56,175 bases of DNA, taken from contig JABIJM010000028.1 of assembly GCA_018655525.1 (NCBI GenBank), forward strand, positions 1 through 56,175. Direction: 5' to 3'. Shown in pieces: positions 12,536 through 47,552 of the stretch (positions within the stretch are counted from its first letter, which is position 1; every line of letters begins with the position of its first letter). This DNA is from Candidatus Woesearchaeota archaeon. Its GTDB lineage: Archaea > Nanobdellota > Nanobdellia > Woesearchaeales > GW2011-AR9. The position numbers were made by a program, and so were the translations under genes. The notes beneath the pieces were generated by a model, which did no database searches, was not told the DNA's origin, and saw only the letters and a list, made by a program, of their open reading frames with translations.

Positions 12536-13381
12536 ATGCAAAGAAAAAAAGAACTCATTATTTTTAAAATTATCATTGTCTTAAGTCTTTTAGGATTTTT
12601 AACATCATTATATCTCGTTCAATCCCATATATCTCCCGCAACTGAAGGATCTGTGTGTGATATCTCTTCTTCGGTTTCATGTTCTCTTGTAAATACACGT
12701 GAATTCTCAGAATTATTTAATGTGCCTGTTGCAGTCTTTGGTGCACTGTGGTTTGTGTTCTTAGGTTTACTCGCATGGAAATCTATGAAGAATAAAAAAT
12801 TAATCCCTGGATTATTTTGGTGGAATCTTCTTGGAATTGCGTTTGTAGTATATTTAATAGCAGCAGAATTTATCCTTAAAGCACTTTGTCCATTTTGTAC
12901 AGTTGTGCATGTCATTACAGTTGTAACATTTGGATTAATCTTTATTTTACATAGAGGAAAGAAAAAATTAGTTCCTTTAAAGACATTTAAAACATGGATT
13001 GCATGGATTATTATTCTTAACCTCATCCCATTAATTGCATTTAATGTTGGTGGAGGAGAAGATGTTGATTATTCTTCTCTCACAAAATGTGTTGCAGATA
13101 AAGGTGTGGATATGTATGGGTCATTTAAATGTGGTATTTGTGCAAAACAGCGTCAGTTATTGGGAGATTCATTTGAACATATTAATGAAATTGAATGCCA
13201 TCCTCAAGGTGAAAACCCTCAAACACAATTATGTATTGATAAAAAGATTGATGGTACACCTACGTGGATTTTAGAACAAAATGGTGTTGAACAAAAACGT
13301 CAAGAAGGATTTATGTCAATTGAAGAATTAGAAGAATTTTCTGGTTGTACATTTGAAGAGGTTGTAGAAGATGCTTCCTGA
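12536..13381 (+). CDS. VKOR fused to a thioredoxin-like domain
   Basis: The 281-residue protein combines a VKOR membrane domain (about 1-172; loop Cys41 and Cys49, CPFC at 118-121) with an extracytoplasmic thioredoxin-like domain (about 178-270) containing CGIC (199-202) and a GTPTW cis-Pro region. Fusion of oxidase and its DsbA-like partner is known from bacteria and plants, so this is a self-contained disulfide-forming enzyme. ATG 12536 is chosen because AGAGGTT lies 8 nt upstream; an in-frame ATG at 12515 precedes that SD. The 3' end overlaps the next gene by 11 nt. Confidence 0.92.
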   Translation: MQRKKELIIFKIIIVLSLLGFLTSLYLVQSHISPATEGSVCDISSSVSCSLVNTREFSELFNVPVAVFGALWFVFLGLLAWKSMKNKKLIPGLFWWNLLGIAFVVYLIAAEFILKALCPFCTVVHVITVVTFGLIFILHRGKKKLVPLKTFKTWIAWIIILNLIPLIAFNVGGGEDVDYSSLTKCVADKGVDMYGSFKCGICAKQRQLLGDSFEHINEIECHPQGENPQTQLCIDKKIDGTPTWILEQNGVEQKRQEGFMSIEELEEFSGCTFEEVVEDAS

Positions 13382-42412: not shown

Positions 42413-42496
42413 ATTTCTAATAATTGAGTGGGAGAGGATTGTTTATTTTTTAGGTTTAGTTTTGGATTGTGGAAAAATAGAGGATTATTTAGGTCT

Positions 42497-42820
42497 TTAA
42501 AAAAAATCCATTTTATACTGTAAAATTATCCCAATCAGTAAAAAAATGAAGATTATAATGTATCTATTAATTTTCCATTTTTCAGAATTAAATTTTCCAA
42601 AACTAATCATCCCTAGCAATGTGCCCCAAAGAATTGCTGATCCCATTGAAAGGAATGGAATTAGGAAGATTGCAACCCATCCAGATCCTTCAGATAATCC
42701 AAGAAGAGAAATGATTGAAAAGGAAGAAAACATAAAAAACAAAAGAGAGATAAAGAAACCAGTGTACAAGCCAACTCCAGCTGATAAAACAGTCAATAGA
42801 ATCTTAATATTATCTCTCAT
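42497..42820 (-). CDS. Small polytopic membrane protein
   Basis: The 107-residue product has three hydrophobic segments (about 8-34, 46-70 and 86-102) and no other recognisable motif. It may be expressed from a TATA-like element near 42848-42858, just beside repeat copy A. Confidence 0.58.
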   Translation of the reverse strand: MRDNIKILLTVLSAGVGLYTGFFISLLFFMFSSFSIISLLGLSEGSGWVAIFLIPFLSMGSAILWGTLLGMISFGKFNSEKWKINRYIIIFIFLLIGIILQYKMDFF

Positions 42821-42857
42821 GTAATATCTAAGGATAATTAACTAATATATTAAACTA

Positions 42858-42922
42858 ACCTCCAAATAATCGTATCTTTATTTATTCTAATTTTTCTCAA
42901 GGGGTTTATTTACAAACAAAGG
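42858..42922. repeat. Direct repeat copy A bounding the 43-45 kb cassette
   Basis: This 65-bp sequence (ACCTCCAAATAA ... TTTACAAACAAAGG) is about 83% identical to 45022-45087 in the same orientation. Its right end covers the stop codon and the last codons of the GrpB-like gene. Confidence 0.75.
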
Positions 42923-42966
42923 CACCTTTATTGAGTATGAAAAAACCCCGATTGTTCGTAAATAAA
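42905..42966. repeat. Inverted repeat at the cassette edge
   Basis: TTTATTTACAAACAA (42905-42919) recurs inverted as TTGTTCGTAAATAAA (42952-42966), 14 of 15 matching, with GGGGTTT/AAACCCC (42901-42907, 42943-42949) also paired. It lies within the 3' end of the GrpB-like gene. Confidence 0.65.
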
Positions 42967-43535
42967 GGTGTTTTAGAATTATTTAGAAAAGTAAAAAACT
43001 CGTTATGGGGAGGTTTATTCATAGTTAAGATTTTTCTAATAAATGGTTGTTTGTGTGCATTATAATCACAATTTTCAAATTTTCCTTTTCCAATTGCTTC
43101 ATTCTTTATCTTAGCATATTCTTTCAATAATGTTTTACTCTTAAGAAGACGATCTCTGAAATTAATCATATTATAATAATCACTGCTATTTGAATTAGTC
43201 ATATGACAATGGATATAATATTTTTTGTTTCTATACTTAATTGCTCCTTGAAATAGAATTGTTTTTCTCTTTGTTTTCTTAACTAAATCCTTTTGAAAAC
43301 CTAGCAAAATTAATTTCTTTGAAACCAATTTATATTTCTGCGGTGAGGAAACAACTAATACATCAATTATACCCTTACCTCCAACCCCTATTGCCGAACT
43401 TCCGACATGTTCTAATCTAATTTGAGGTAACTTATCATGAATGATTTCTTGAATCTTCTTAAAAACAAAAGGGGAATTTTTATCAAATTTACAAAACACA
43501 CAAACATTCTCATTAAACTTTAGTATTATAGACAT
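42906..43535 (-). CDS. GrpB/UPF0157-like nucleotidyltransferase-fold protein
   Basis: The 209-residue protein shows the GrpB core: RLEHVGSSAIGVGGKGIIDVLV (read as LEHVGSSAIG and GKGIIDVLV), with the helix and strand order of the nucleotidyltransferase fold, and HNAHKQPFIRKIL-type sequence later (NAHKQPFIRKIL). Reaction unknown for the family. The final about 30 residues (after KPPHNEFF) overlap the inverted and direct repeats and look like a non-homologous extension. Confidence 0.72.
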   Translation of the reverse strand: MSIILKFNENVCVFCKFDKNSPFVFKKIQEIIHDKLPQIRLEHVGSSAIGVGGKGIIDVLVVSSPQKYKLVSKKLILLGFQKDLVKKTKRKTILFQGAIKYRNKKYYIHCHMTNSNSSDYYNMINFRDRLLKSKTLLKEYAKIKNEAIGKGKFENCDYNAHKQPFIRKILTMNKPPHNEFFTFLNNSKTPLFTNNRGFFILNKGAFVCK

Positions 43536-43579
43536 ATTACTTACAAAATAATTGATAATTAAAAAACTTTCTAAATTAT

Positions 43580-43596
43580 AAGTATCCTTGATACTT
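43580..43596 (-). terminator. Hairpin between hydrolase and GrpB-like genes
   Basis: AAGTATC and GATACTT form a perfect 7-bp stem with a 3-nt loop in the 85-nt gap; it may end the hydrolase transcript. Confidence 0.35.
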
Positions 43597-43620
43597 CCTA
43601 AAGGATGAAGGCTTAAGCGT

Positions 43621-44391
43621 CTAATCTAAACTAGCTTCTCCTTTTTCAAACCAATCTCCAAATAACTCATTAGAAACTGTTCTATCTCCATTTATACCAA
43701 GTCCATGATCTGCATCTTTTAGAACAATTAATTTACCATTAGAAAATCCCTTAATTACTTTTTTACTTTGTTCTATGAGTACGGATTTATCAGCATCTCC
43801 ATGAATAATAAGAACAGGACATTTAATAGCTTTAACTTGGTCATACATAACATGTTTTTTTGTATCTTCATAAAAAGAATAGTTTATTTTCAATTTCCCT
43901 CTATCTCTACTATTAAAATAATTAAAGCCGTCTTTCTTCCAATTCTTAATTCCAGCTTCACCTAATTTTCTCAATTTTTGCGTAGGATAATCAGAAACAG
44001 GAGCTTTAAGACCTATTCTTTTGATTTCAGGATGATTTAAAGCAGTGACCATAACAGTTATTCCTCCTGCGCTTGAACCAAAAAGATTAATTTCATTATA
44101 TCCTTTTTCTTTCATTAGTTCAATAGCATGACTGACATCATCTGCTGCACTTGAAATTGTATGTTCCGAGAAATCCCCTTCACTTTCACCACAGCCATCA
44201 AGATCTATTCTAAAAGAATTAATGTTTCTTTTTTCAAGTTCCTCTGACATCTGCTTTGATGAACTTCCGTTCTTATTACTAGAATAACCATGAACAAGAA
44301 TAACAACTTCTTCTTTGTTTTCATTTGGTTCTAGAAGAATACCATAAATTTTTTGTTCGTTTGAATTTTTAAAATATAACTTGTTCATCAT
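43621..44391 (-). CDS. Alpha/beta hydrolase
   Basis: The 256-residue protein has the oxyanion segment VVILVHGYSSNKNG, nucleophile elbow GSSAGG (Ser107), Asp in IHGDADKSV and His in DADHGLG, a full catalytic triad. It resembles BAAT/acyl-thioesterase or serine aminopeptidase-type hydrolases; the substrate is unknown. ATG 44391 overlaps the stop of the HD gene (ATGA) and has GAGGT 8 nt upstream; ATG 44412 lies before that SD. It is co-transcribed with the HD gene. Confidence 0.85.
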   Translation of the reverse strand: MMNKLYFKNSNEQKIYGILLEPNENKEEVVILVHGYSSNKNGSSSKQMSEELEKRNINSFRIDLDGCGESEGDFSEHTISSAADDVSHAIELMKEKGYNEINLFGSSAGGITVMVTALNHPEIKRIGLKAPVSDYPTQKLRKLGEAGIKNWKKDGFNYFNSRDRGKLKINYSFYEDTKKHVMYDQVKAIKCPVLIIHGDADKSVLIEQSKKVIKGFSNGKLIVLKDADHGLGINGDRTVSNELFGDWFEKGEASLD

Positions 44392-44969
44392 TTTATTAAC
44401 CTCTCTTTCCAATACCTTAAATCTTCAAGAAATAGTTTTTTAGATTTAGTTAAAAAGAATGGGGTTCTCTTTTGTTTTATTTTATAATCCGCCTGAACGG
44501 TTTTGAGAAATTCTCTTCTATTTTGATTGAGAAATTTTCTAACAACATCAAAACCTTTCCTAGACGCCTCCCAAGAGAAGTCAAAATCAGTAAAAATTCT
44601 CCATTCAGGATCTTCAAGAGATTTACCAAAAGCCCAATCATCGTGGTGTTCAATTAACCACAGTGTTTTCTTCCTTTTTGATTTAGGAAAATTAACTTTT
44701 TCAAGGATTACTTTAGCAATTTTAGAACTTTCCTTTGAATGAGCTTTTCTAATTTTTAAATCATAAGGATTGTAACCCTTTGGCATTTTACTATAACCAA
44801 CATCATGAAGAATAGCAAGAGCATAAGTAATATCAAAATCATGCCCTTTCTTTTCAATTGTAGGCTTTAAGTCAAACAACTTCTTACTAATCCAACCAAT
44901 ATGTACTAAATCACCTGATCTTCCTTTCTTGTAAAATGGTTCTGCCAATTTAACTATTTTTTTATACAT
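44388..44969 (-). CDS. HD-domain phosphohydrolase
   Basis: The 193-residue protein has metal-binding His23, the HD pair His55-Asp56 in ALAILHDVGYS, a further His in KAHSKESSKIA and HHDDW near 110. This is the HD-superfamily metal site, used on nucleotides or phosphoesters. TATA-like GCTTAAATAC (about 44993-45002) lies upstream. It is the first gene of the cassette operon next to repeat copy B. Confidence 0.85.
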   Translation of the reverse strand: MYKKIVKLAEPFYKKGRSGDLVHIGWISKKLFDLKPTIEKKGHDFDITYALAILHDVGYSKMPKGYNPYDLKIRKAHSKESSKIAKVILEKVNFPKSKRKKTLWLIEHHDDWAFGKSLEDPEWRIFTDFDFSWEASRKGFDVVRKFLNQNRREFLKTVQADYKIKQKRTPFFLTKSKKLFLEDLRYWKERLIK

Positions 44970-45021
44970 TTACATAAAAGAATAATTATTGAGTATTTAA
45001 GCTTTGAGATTACATAAACAT

Positions 45022-45087
45022 ACCTCCAAATAAGTGTGCTTTTATTTATTTCTAATTCTTGTGAAAGGGTATATTTACAAACAAAGG
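45022..45087. repeat. Direct repeat copy B
   Basis: Diverged copy (66 bp) of 42858-42922, in direct orientation. It lies upstream of the HD gene promoter. The 2.1-kb interval between the copies holds exactly three genes. Confidence 0.75.
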
Positions 45088-45170
45088 AGGGTCTTTTCAT
45101 ATCATGAAATGTCCAATCCTTCACTTTAAAGGGACGAAGAATTTATAAACTCCCCCATTAAAATAAGAAC

Positions 45171-45959
45171 ATGGATACAGCAAAGGCATATTTAGCTTGG
45201 ACGAATGACAATAAAGAAGCATTTGAAGATGCAAAACTAATAGTTGCTCTAGAAGACCTTAGATATGGGGTTAGTTCCAACTTTGAAGGAAAACTGCTTT
45301 TACCTGATGGTTCTTCAATGCCTTACACTCAAATCGGGGTCCTCTTAGAAGAAAAAGCAGAAGGACATAGAGCTCTTCTTAAAAGTGGTCGAGAATTGCC
45401 AGTAGGAGGTTTTAATGGTCCGTTTACTTTTGATATGGTGGATTTATATTTAGGGAGAGGATCACCAGATTATTTTGTCAGTGGAGGATTTGGTAATCAA
45501 GATGCTAGAATCAGAGTTGGTACAAACGAATCTACCCTCCCATTTGATTTAGATTTTGCTCTTTCTGTAGCTTATGCAAACATAATGTCCCAAGGATTTA
45601 GTGATGATGCTAAAAAAGTAATTTATGATTGGAAACCAGGAGAAAATTCTGAACCATCATTAAGAATGGCCAAGGTCTTAGAAAAAGGAAAACTTACTGA
45701 TGTAGAAATAAGATTTGCAGGAAAGTGTCATCAGGAATTAGGTAGTCGGATTCAAGGTTTACTTGATGCTGAAGAAGAAGATCCAAGATTTCATGAACAT
45801 GCAGATGAATCTAAATATACTCATGCCCTGAAGAACTCTAAATACAGCCACGATTTTGTACTTATGGCTGCAGCAAAACTTGGGATCCGCTTAAGTGGAA
45901 GATCACGCAGAACAAGAAACCTTGGAAAGCAAGAAAATTGTCCTACTTTATTTGATTAA
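45171..45959 (+). CDS. Hypothetical protein
   Basis: The 262-residue soluble, acidic protein has no recognised family. It has no signal or membrane helix; a Gly-rich region (LPVGGFNGPFTFDMVDLYLG) and an Asp-rich C-terminal half are visible. A TATA-like TTTATAAAC (45142-45150) supports leaderless ATG 45171. Confidence 0.6.
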   Translation: MDTAKAYLAWTNDNKEAFEDAKLIVALEDLRYGVSSNFEGKLLLPDGSSMPYTQIGVLLEEKAEGHRALLKSGRELPVGGFNGPFTFDMVDLYLGRGSPDYFVSGGFGNQDARIRVGTNESTLPFDLDFALSVAYANIMSQGFSDDAKKVIYDWKPGENSEPSLRMAKVLEKGKLTDVEIRFAGKCHQELGSRIQGLLDAEEEDPRFHEHADESKYTHALKNSKYSHDFVLMAAAKLGIRLSGRSRRTRNLGKQENCPTLFD

Positions 45960-46061
45960 TTTTCTAAATAAACATTCCTCCCTTTTTTGAATATTAATAA
46001 AATCAGCACTTCATCCTTGTAAACAGAGAAAGATATAAATAGATTAAATCATTTCTAAGAG

Positions 46062-46711: not shown

Positions 46712-47170
46712 ATGGATAAAAGAGGGATTGCACCTTTAATTGCTACGATGTTACTTATTTCTTTTGCAGTTTCACTAGGTATGGTTGTCATGAACTTTGG
46801 ACGAGCACAAGTTGAATTGCAAGCTCAATGTGCAATTGATGTTAATTTAAAAATTTCCGAGATTGCGGGAGCAAAGGAAGTTTGTCTTGATCCTGCAAAA
46901 CAAGAATTAAAATTTACAGTTGAAAATGGTGTTAATATTAAGGTTGAAGGGCTTCTCGTTAATGTGATAGGATCGGAGCGTGCCGAAACATTTGAATTGA
47001 ATGATGCCAGAATGACGAAATCTGGCATTTATTTAGGGAGAGTTCCTTATGATAGCAGTGCTTCAGGAACAATTAGACAAGTACGATTAACACCAAAGGT
47101 AATTCTTTATGATACAGTTGAAGTTTGTGTAGAAAAATCATTAATTTTTGAGGAGATAGGTACATGTTAA
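46712..47170 (+). CDS. Archaeal type IV pilin-like protein
   Basis: The 152-residue protein has a class III signal: DKRG before IAPLIATMLLISFAVSLG, the pilin N-terminal helix that is cleaved by a prepilin peptidase (PibD/FlaK) and packs in the filament or membrane. The rest is beta-rich with two cysteine pairs. A TATA box lies about 46682-46690. No secretion ATPase genes are adjacent. The tail sequence VEVCVEKSLIFEEIGTC is repeated in decayed form at 47457-47552. Confidence 0.85.
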   Translation: MDKRGIAPLIATMLLISFAVSLGMVVMNFGRAQVELQAQCAIDVNLKISEIAGAKEVCLDPAKQELKFTVENGVNIKVEGLLVNVIGSERAETFELNDARMTKSGIYLGRVPYDSSASGTIRQVRLTPKVILYDTVEVCVEKSLIFEEIGTC

Positions 47171-47171
47171 A

Positions 47172-47456
47172 ATGAGATTTAAATTCCCGTTTCAGTTTAG
47201 AACAAAATATAAAATTGCACAACGTGGAATTCAAACAGAAGCACAAAGATTGGATCAAATTTTGTCTTCAAGTTATTCACCTTCATTTGTTTACAAAAGT
47301 AAATTTTCTGGATTAATTCAAAGTCCATATGTTTTTCCACCAGGAGATCAAAGTCATTTCCTCACAAGAGTTTATTTTGGTGAAGAAAGAAATTTAGAAA
47401 AACAACTTCTAGAAAACGTGCCAGATGCAAAACCAACTATTCTTTGTAGATTCTGA
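47172..47456 (+). CDS. Hypothetical small protein after the pilin gene
   Basis: The 94-residue basic protein (FKFPFQFRTKYKIA, later RVYFGEERNLEKQLLENV) has no recognised family. It begins 1 nt after the pilin stop. Its reading frame continues beyond the TGA stop into a pilin-like tail, so it may be part of a rearranged duplicate. Confidence 0.5.
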   Translation: MRFKFPFQFRTKYKIAQRGIQTEAQRLDQILSSSYSPSFVYKSKFSGLIQSPYVFPPGDQSHFLTRVYFGEERNLEKQLLENVPDAKPTILCRF

Positions 47457-47552
47457 AAGTACATAAACCCTAAAATAATCTCAAATATTTATGATATAGT
47501 TGAAATTAGTGTTGAAAAATCTTTAATATTTGAGGAGATTGGAAATTGTTAA
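47457..47552 (+). pseudogene. Remnant of a duplicated pilin C-terminus
   Basis: In frame after the stop at 47454, the sequence encodes VEISVEKSLIFEEIGNC then TAA, matching the pilin C-terminus VEVCVEKSLIFEEIGTC almost residue for residue. Upstream INPKI corresponds to TPKVI. No N-terminal pilin helix is left, so it is a truncated duplicate. It abuts the metF stop. Confidence 0.75.

Follow-up and report, generated by a model that had tools for sequence, protein, structure and literature searches.

Palindromic spacers and inverted boundary elements delimit accessory genes in a woesearchaeal genus, in an arrangement that looks like a gene-cassette system

The superintegron of Vibrio cholerae carries long palindromic repeats (VCR), one per cassette, that are conserved in sequence within one lineage. 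The attC sites of integrons have RYYYAAC and GTTRRRY cores at their ends and measure 57-141 bp (PMC3053210), and the integrons so far described in archaea harbor canonical attC sites and cassettes that generally share the same orientation (Ghaly et al. 2022, PMC9668308). Among open-licence papers, we found archaeal integrons described and nothing with a site of the type reported below. Here, we analyzed a stretch of 56,175 nucleotides of a Candidatus Woesearchaeota genome (hereafter the window and G000, respectively), which contains an island of accessory genes that looks like part of a gene-cassette system with an integron-like layout and different DNA sites. The exosome (Rrp41/Rrp42) and rpoK genes of the window are consistent with a woesearchaeal origin.

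The first-pass annotation of this DNA had singled out two direct repeats enclosing exactly three genes, and had read them as a cassette inserted by recombination or as the edge of a mobile element. The repeats are real (42851-42922 vs. 45015-45087, 82% identical) and do enclose three genes (GrpB-like, alpha/beta-hydrolase, and HD), each on the minus strand. The inverted 15-mer noted in copy A is also present (42905-42919 and 42952-42966, 93%), and corresponds to the inner arm of a palindrome of ~175 bp, hereafter the P element, whereas copy B, as had been overlooked, is only half of such an element. The unusual tail ascribed to the GrpB-like protein is equally genuine, since the Pfam domain covers the protein only up to residue 170 of 209 and the open reading frame then reads into element A and stops inside it, so that residues ~171 to 209 are encoded by the element and match element copies elsewhere. 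Also overlooked were two boundary elements of a second type (S), which lie farther out, are inverted relative to each other, and delimit an island of five genes (~42428-46004; table 1): that of a 107-aa membrane-like protein, the GrpB/hydrolase/HD unit, and that of a 262-aa protein. The repeats are thus intergenic palindromic spacers within a larger island that has its own inverted boundaries, and the idea of a plain insertion with a direct repeat on either side can be discarded. What holds of the initial reading is its cassette part: further copies of the repeat with different gene contents are present at other loci of G000 and in a genome of the same genus (G002), and loci devoid of the cassette are found in G002 and in another relative (G001). 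The base composition of the island, barely AT-richer than its flanks, is uninformative, and two sequence searches against structure databases likewise yielded nothing of use.

Table 1. Positions in the window of the genes and elements that make up the island.
Feature	Position	Strand	Supporting observation
Left boundary element (S type, short form)	42428..42496	+	Tip GGAGGATTATTT toward island; begins 39 bp past rpoK stop
107-aa hydrophobic (membrane-like) protein, first cassette	42497..42820	-	ORF; stop 13 nt from boundary tip
Copy A, complete ~175-bp palindromic spacer (P element)	42848..43024	-	Covariance model 153.5 bits, E=1e-25
GrpB-family (PF04229) protein	42906..43535	-	PF04229 E=4e-20, residues 18-170
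Alpha/beta-hydrolase (Hydrolase_4), GSSAGG nucleophile motif	43621..44391	-	PF12146 E=4e-18; overlaps HD stop
HD-domain protein, first gene of the likely three-gene unit	44388..44969	-	PF01966 E=9e-5, 23.2 bits vs. cut-off 22
Copy B, left half of P element	45010..45100	+	Recognizable only to element center
262-aa protein, last cassette	45171..45959	+	ORF; stop 17 nt from right boundary tip
Right boundary element (S type), inverted vs. left one	45966..46004	-	Tip TAAACATTCCTCC

Since the hydrolase gene overlaps the stop of the HD gene, the three enzymes are probably encoded by one transcription unit, and HD-hydrolase-GrpB likely forms one co-transcribed cassette unit. The first-pass annotation had proposed that they could constitute a small defense or stress module, an idea in keeping with their shared enzymatic appearance and their probable co-transcription. 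However, none of the five proteins of the island has a PADLOC match, and the homologs of the HD protein in relatives (it has homologs in 5 of 59 other genomes searched) neighbor neither GrpB nor the hydrolase, which leaves this proposal extremely improbable. The HD protein has no relative in viral contigs. As for the outer cassettes, neither the 107-aa nor the 262-aa protein matches Pfam, NCBIfam, or PADLOC; no counterpart of the former is encoded beside rpoK in G001 and G002, and none of the latter in 12 relatives. Outside the island, at 46712-47549, the C-terminal 27 residues of a pilin-like 152-aa protein recur with 65% identity past the next ORF (47463-47549), as though this were the remnant of a truncated second pilin.

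The P element is an imperfect palindrome (168-179 bp) with ends AAAYATTCCTCC...GGAGGAATGTTTAT and center TTTTT-N8-AAAAA. Near this center, almost every copy displays one AGGGGG-type and one GGTGCC-type flank, an asymmetry that gives the palindrome a direction; in copy A, it is on the minus strand that the AGGGGG-core precedes the GGTGCC-core. The family profile aligns to each element in both orientations, for the most part over the whole length. When built without the window copies, it recovers A (E=5e-27) and B (E=3e-12, covering positions 92-178 of the model on the minus strand and 4-85 on the plus), the next best match in the window being at E=1.5, and a model derived from the G002 copies alone likewise recovers both. 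Copies are 70-85% identical and look mosaic, and besides the half-length copy B, some other elements are degenerate. RNAalifold retrieved almost no structure from unoriented copies; the copies were then oriented by their asymmetric core, and the dyad symmetry thus aligned comprises 43 pairs, in which 81.6% of cells pair. Compensatory (both-side) changes are found in 12 of these 43 pairs, and the covariation score is 0.186 versus 0.05-0.086 when the partner is slid (0 of 500 shuffles), some of these paired changes being ones that exchange of the two arms between copies, rather than selection, could have produced. When folded as single-stranded DNA, three of seven full-length P elements depart clearly from shuffled sequences (z of -4.0 for C23a, -4.5 for G2b, and -3.5 for G2c; -1.6, -0.5, -0.3, and -0.2 for the remaining four). 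Identity as a small RNA was rejected, no Rfam match coming near threshold.

With copy A as query, G000 (0.96 Mb, 30 contigs) yielded copy B and two matches on contig C23, and a cluster of four matches was found in G002. With a covariance model and strict filters, P elements were detected among 49 genomes of the family only in G000 (94% complete) and G002 (80% complete; G001 is 76% complete), the other 47 having none. In G000 they occupy three loci, namely the window (contig C5), C23 (three copies, 90.5-92.2 kb), and C11 (one copy, 24.0 kb), and in G002 a single one (contig C26, three copies). All matches of the P model are clustered in islands between accessory genes, whichever the orientation of these genes, and no full P element was found outside these islands in the roughly 283 kb of G000 that were scanned. 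Viral contigs yielded no match to a 21-base core pattern or a 20-base boundary pattern, and the 16 viral contigs with a short tip pattern contain no element; in GTDB genomes, only two sources matched the core pattern repeatedly, namely the contig of the related Woesearchaeota and one Mycoplasma genome, in which the matches lie apart from each other. A BLAST match in G005 proved spurious, as it falls inside a gene. On C23, a fourth, much altered, and longer element lies between o387 and o420 (L013 9420-9740), and apparently consists of P-type and S-type sequence joined together.

At the window and at the C23 locus, a sequence of the form GGGAGAGGATTGTTTATTTTTTAG...GGAGGA(A/T)T(G/A)TTTA is found 39-50 bp past the last conserved gene. 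An S model built without the window copies gave its two best window matches on either side of the repeats and in inverted orientation, with modest scores: the left one (42430-42491(+), E=0.0056) is the top match of the 56-kb window, and a near-identical GGGAGAGGATTGTTTATTTTTTAG stands at the edge of the C23 island; the right one (46002-45969(-), E=0.014) comes second. S elements were sought in about 283 kb of the 964-kb G000, and a second model was retrained on six confident copies. Both models identified facing pairs around the C23 island (L013 5256+/11166-), around a one-gene island (L013 12692+/13461-), around the C11 genes (L079 9562+/11716-), and around two genes at ~169 kb of C23 (L149 3220+/4872-). 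Overall, inverted S ends are found at the window island, two C23 islands, the ABC-locus island, and the C11 island. These facing pairs define an island layout of S+ gene P gene P gene S-, in which compact cassettes of one to three genes are separated by P elements and the whole is bracketed by inverted S elements. Elsewhere, a lone and weak S-like sequence (L157 15362-15453, E=3e-5), for which no partner was found, lies upstream of a PAC2-like gene. The G002 island is flanked on each side by a ~25-bp sequence, TTTATAAAGCAWTTCTACAGAGCC (L027 40-66 and 4315-4338), and at its right end a nucleotidyltransferase-like gene (104 aa) adjoins a 149-aa gene (L027 4408-5211), the two being possibly a toxin-antitoxin pair.

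Most elements aim a GGAGGAATGTTTATA-like tip at the adjacent gene, so that cassettes are typically flanked by inverted tips. Eighteen genes were tabulated, and GrpB (whose ORF enters element A) and HD (whose 3' end adjoins the hydrolase) were left out of the count. In 13 of the 16 gene 3' ends that face an element, 1-24 nt separate the stop codon from the tip (at most 19 nt in 12), and two further 3' ends use a variant tip; the stop codon is often formed by the tip itself (TAAACATTCCTCC). As a background, the motif occurs within 20 nt in 5 of 181 ORFs, with the caveat that the tip motif was picked after the elements had been seen, the same motif being scored in both gene sets. Stop codons abut tips irrespective of gene strand, and start codons with a recognized upstream tip stand 21-69 nt from it, a gap that leaves room for a promoter. 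The elements could be imagined as expression signals, which would end and start transcription in both directions and so insulate each accessory gene: the TTTATA that terminates the tips is a TATA-like box, often located 20-55 nt ahead of a start codon, and T-runs occur on both strands at the center of the element. Yet the same tip also faces the 3' ends of genes, elements are found between divergent, convergent, and tandem genes alike, and core genes do without them, all of which makes a role as expression signals very unlikely.

The same observations bear on whether P and S elements might be noncoding palindromic repeats akin to MITEs or ERICs, inserting in the gaps of hypervariable islands whose genes came otherwise. 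P elements resemble such repeats in being of similar length, palindromic, noncoding, and intergenic; they are imperfect palindromes of ~175 bp without an open gene, conserved in sequence among copies, and they read into adjacent ORFs, as seen in the tail of the GrpB-like protein. Palindromic elements of Rickettsia also read into neighboring ORFs. Unlike dispersed repeats, however, every detectable P copy lies inside islands and none elsewhere in the genome, S elements are inverted at island ends, and gene ends are flush with the tips on either strand. No target-site duplication was recognized by eye at the ends of the elements, the AT-rich flanks making short ones undecidable. Overall, we regard insertion of MITE- or ERIC-like repeats as an unlikely account of the P and S elements.

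Comparison with relatives reveals empty sites and variable contents at these loci. The CBS-o121 interval hosts an island of 8.3 kb in G000, spans about 0.2 kb in G001, and in G002 measures 1.1 kb, is devoid of elements, and contains a single unrelated gene. Next to rpoK, G001 and G002 encode o122-DUF357-TrmB-Pth2, when in G000 rpoK is followed by the island and DUF357-TrmB is found on C11, where elements also begin. At this break of synteny (window 42389 and L079 9516), rpoK and DUF357-TrmB are on separate G000 contigs, with elements at both ends. That content can be exchanged behind a fixed boundary is most strongly indicated by the ABC-o158 interval: immediately after the ABC gene, G000 and G002 have the same S element, past which G002 encodes o240, o284, SET, and o88 with P elements between them, whereas G000 encodes a TrmB-like gene and a 218-aa gene, unrelated to the content of G002. 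Gene content is thus unrelated between sites, and also between the two species, both of one woesearchaeal genus, where they share a site. Not one cassette turned up at more than one location, and no gene of one island was found in another.

Such changes of content might in principle require no dedicated recombinase: once DNA has been taken up, the intergenic repeats could simply undergo ordinary homologous recombination. The 70-85% identity of the elements and their mosaic look could be explained in this way, as could the rpoK-DUF357 break, whose two sides carry elements as expected of recombining repeats. Nevertheless, an identity of 75-85% over 175 bp is a poor substrate for efficient homologous recombination, and both the covariation and the conserved asymmetry of the core suggest that a partner binds the element specifically; this passive route therefore seems quite unlikely to us. 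Taken together, the unit layout, the exchange behind a fixed boundary, and the polar palindrome suggest site-specific cassette recombination. The reading that we favor, with moderate confidence, is that these loci are islands of accessory gene cassettes delimited by P and S elements; the cassettes would be acquired, lost, and swapped as whole units, probably through the action in trans of a recombinase. P and S would then serve as the recombination sites, the asymmetric core, with AGGGGG on one side and GGTGCC on the other, would provide the polarity of the palindrome, and individual cassettes would be mobile.

Regarding the enzyme that might drive this exchange, G000 encodes two tyrosine recombinases. 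The first, on C23, has similarly scoring counterparts in G001 and G002, and the second lies beside the C11 island. The latter is an accessory tyrosine recombinase (407 aa, with a zinc-ribbon tail) that adjoins a serine recombinase (196 aa) beside element-bearing genes (L079 12031-14357), and these two would be the best candidates. The C11 tyrosine recombinase scores 39.9 bits where the cut-off of integron integrases is 265 and can be dismissed as an IntI; it also falls under the cut-off of archaeal XerA (107 vs. 220). Several degenerate GGTTCAAAGGT repeats lie between the two C11 recombinase genes (12640-13000). Among all but a few of the proteins of the window, C23, and G002 islands, a Pfam scan recognized no recombinase or transposase, several of these proteins being without any family match.

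The favored cassette reading invites comparison with integrons and archaeal CALINs. The islands share with them compact cassettes, imperfect palindromic and polar sites, stop codons near the site, a variable content behind a fixed boundary element (here at one locus), the fact that most arrays have no integrase beside them, and a palindromic site able to fold single-stranded, as indicated by dyad covariation and by folding that is clear in three copies. In contrast, the RYYYAAC/GTTRRRY cores are absent from seven of eight P elements, the eighth having a single internal match that is not at an end; P elements are longer than attC; genes are in mixed orientation, with divergent and convergent neighbors in the C23 and G002 islands; boundary elements stand at both ends and are inverted; each gene seems to have space for a promoter of its own; and the single recombinase tested is not an IntI. 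Membership in the integrons consequently fails on the lack of attC cores, the excess length, and the mixed orientation. VCR are likewise long palindromic repeats conserved in sequence within a lineage, but they have no core sequence in common with P elements, which moreover occur in islands of few cassettes, with several islands per genome. Cargo transposons with asymmetric ends also have inverted ends that share a tip and differ inside, together with a variable cargo; they differ from the present islands in that no transposase was recognized in the window, C23, and G002 islands and that extra palindromes lie between the cargo genes.

On a more tentative note, it is possible, if less than probable, that these islands represent a cassette-capture system of DPANN archaea that is non-homologous to integrons, with its own ~175-bp palindromic and inverted boundary sites, several fixed places in the chromosome, and a recombinase other than IntI. 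How DPANN archaea with small genomes acquire and exchange accessory genes is poorly known, and the islands offer a handle on variable genes, most of which belong to no known family, in these uncultivated archaea. If a dedicated exchange system does underlie them, it would constitute a second cassette platform, with an integron-like layout and unrelated sites.
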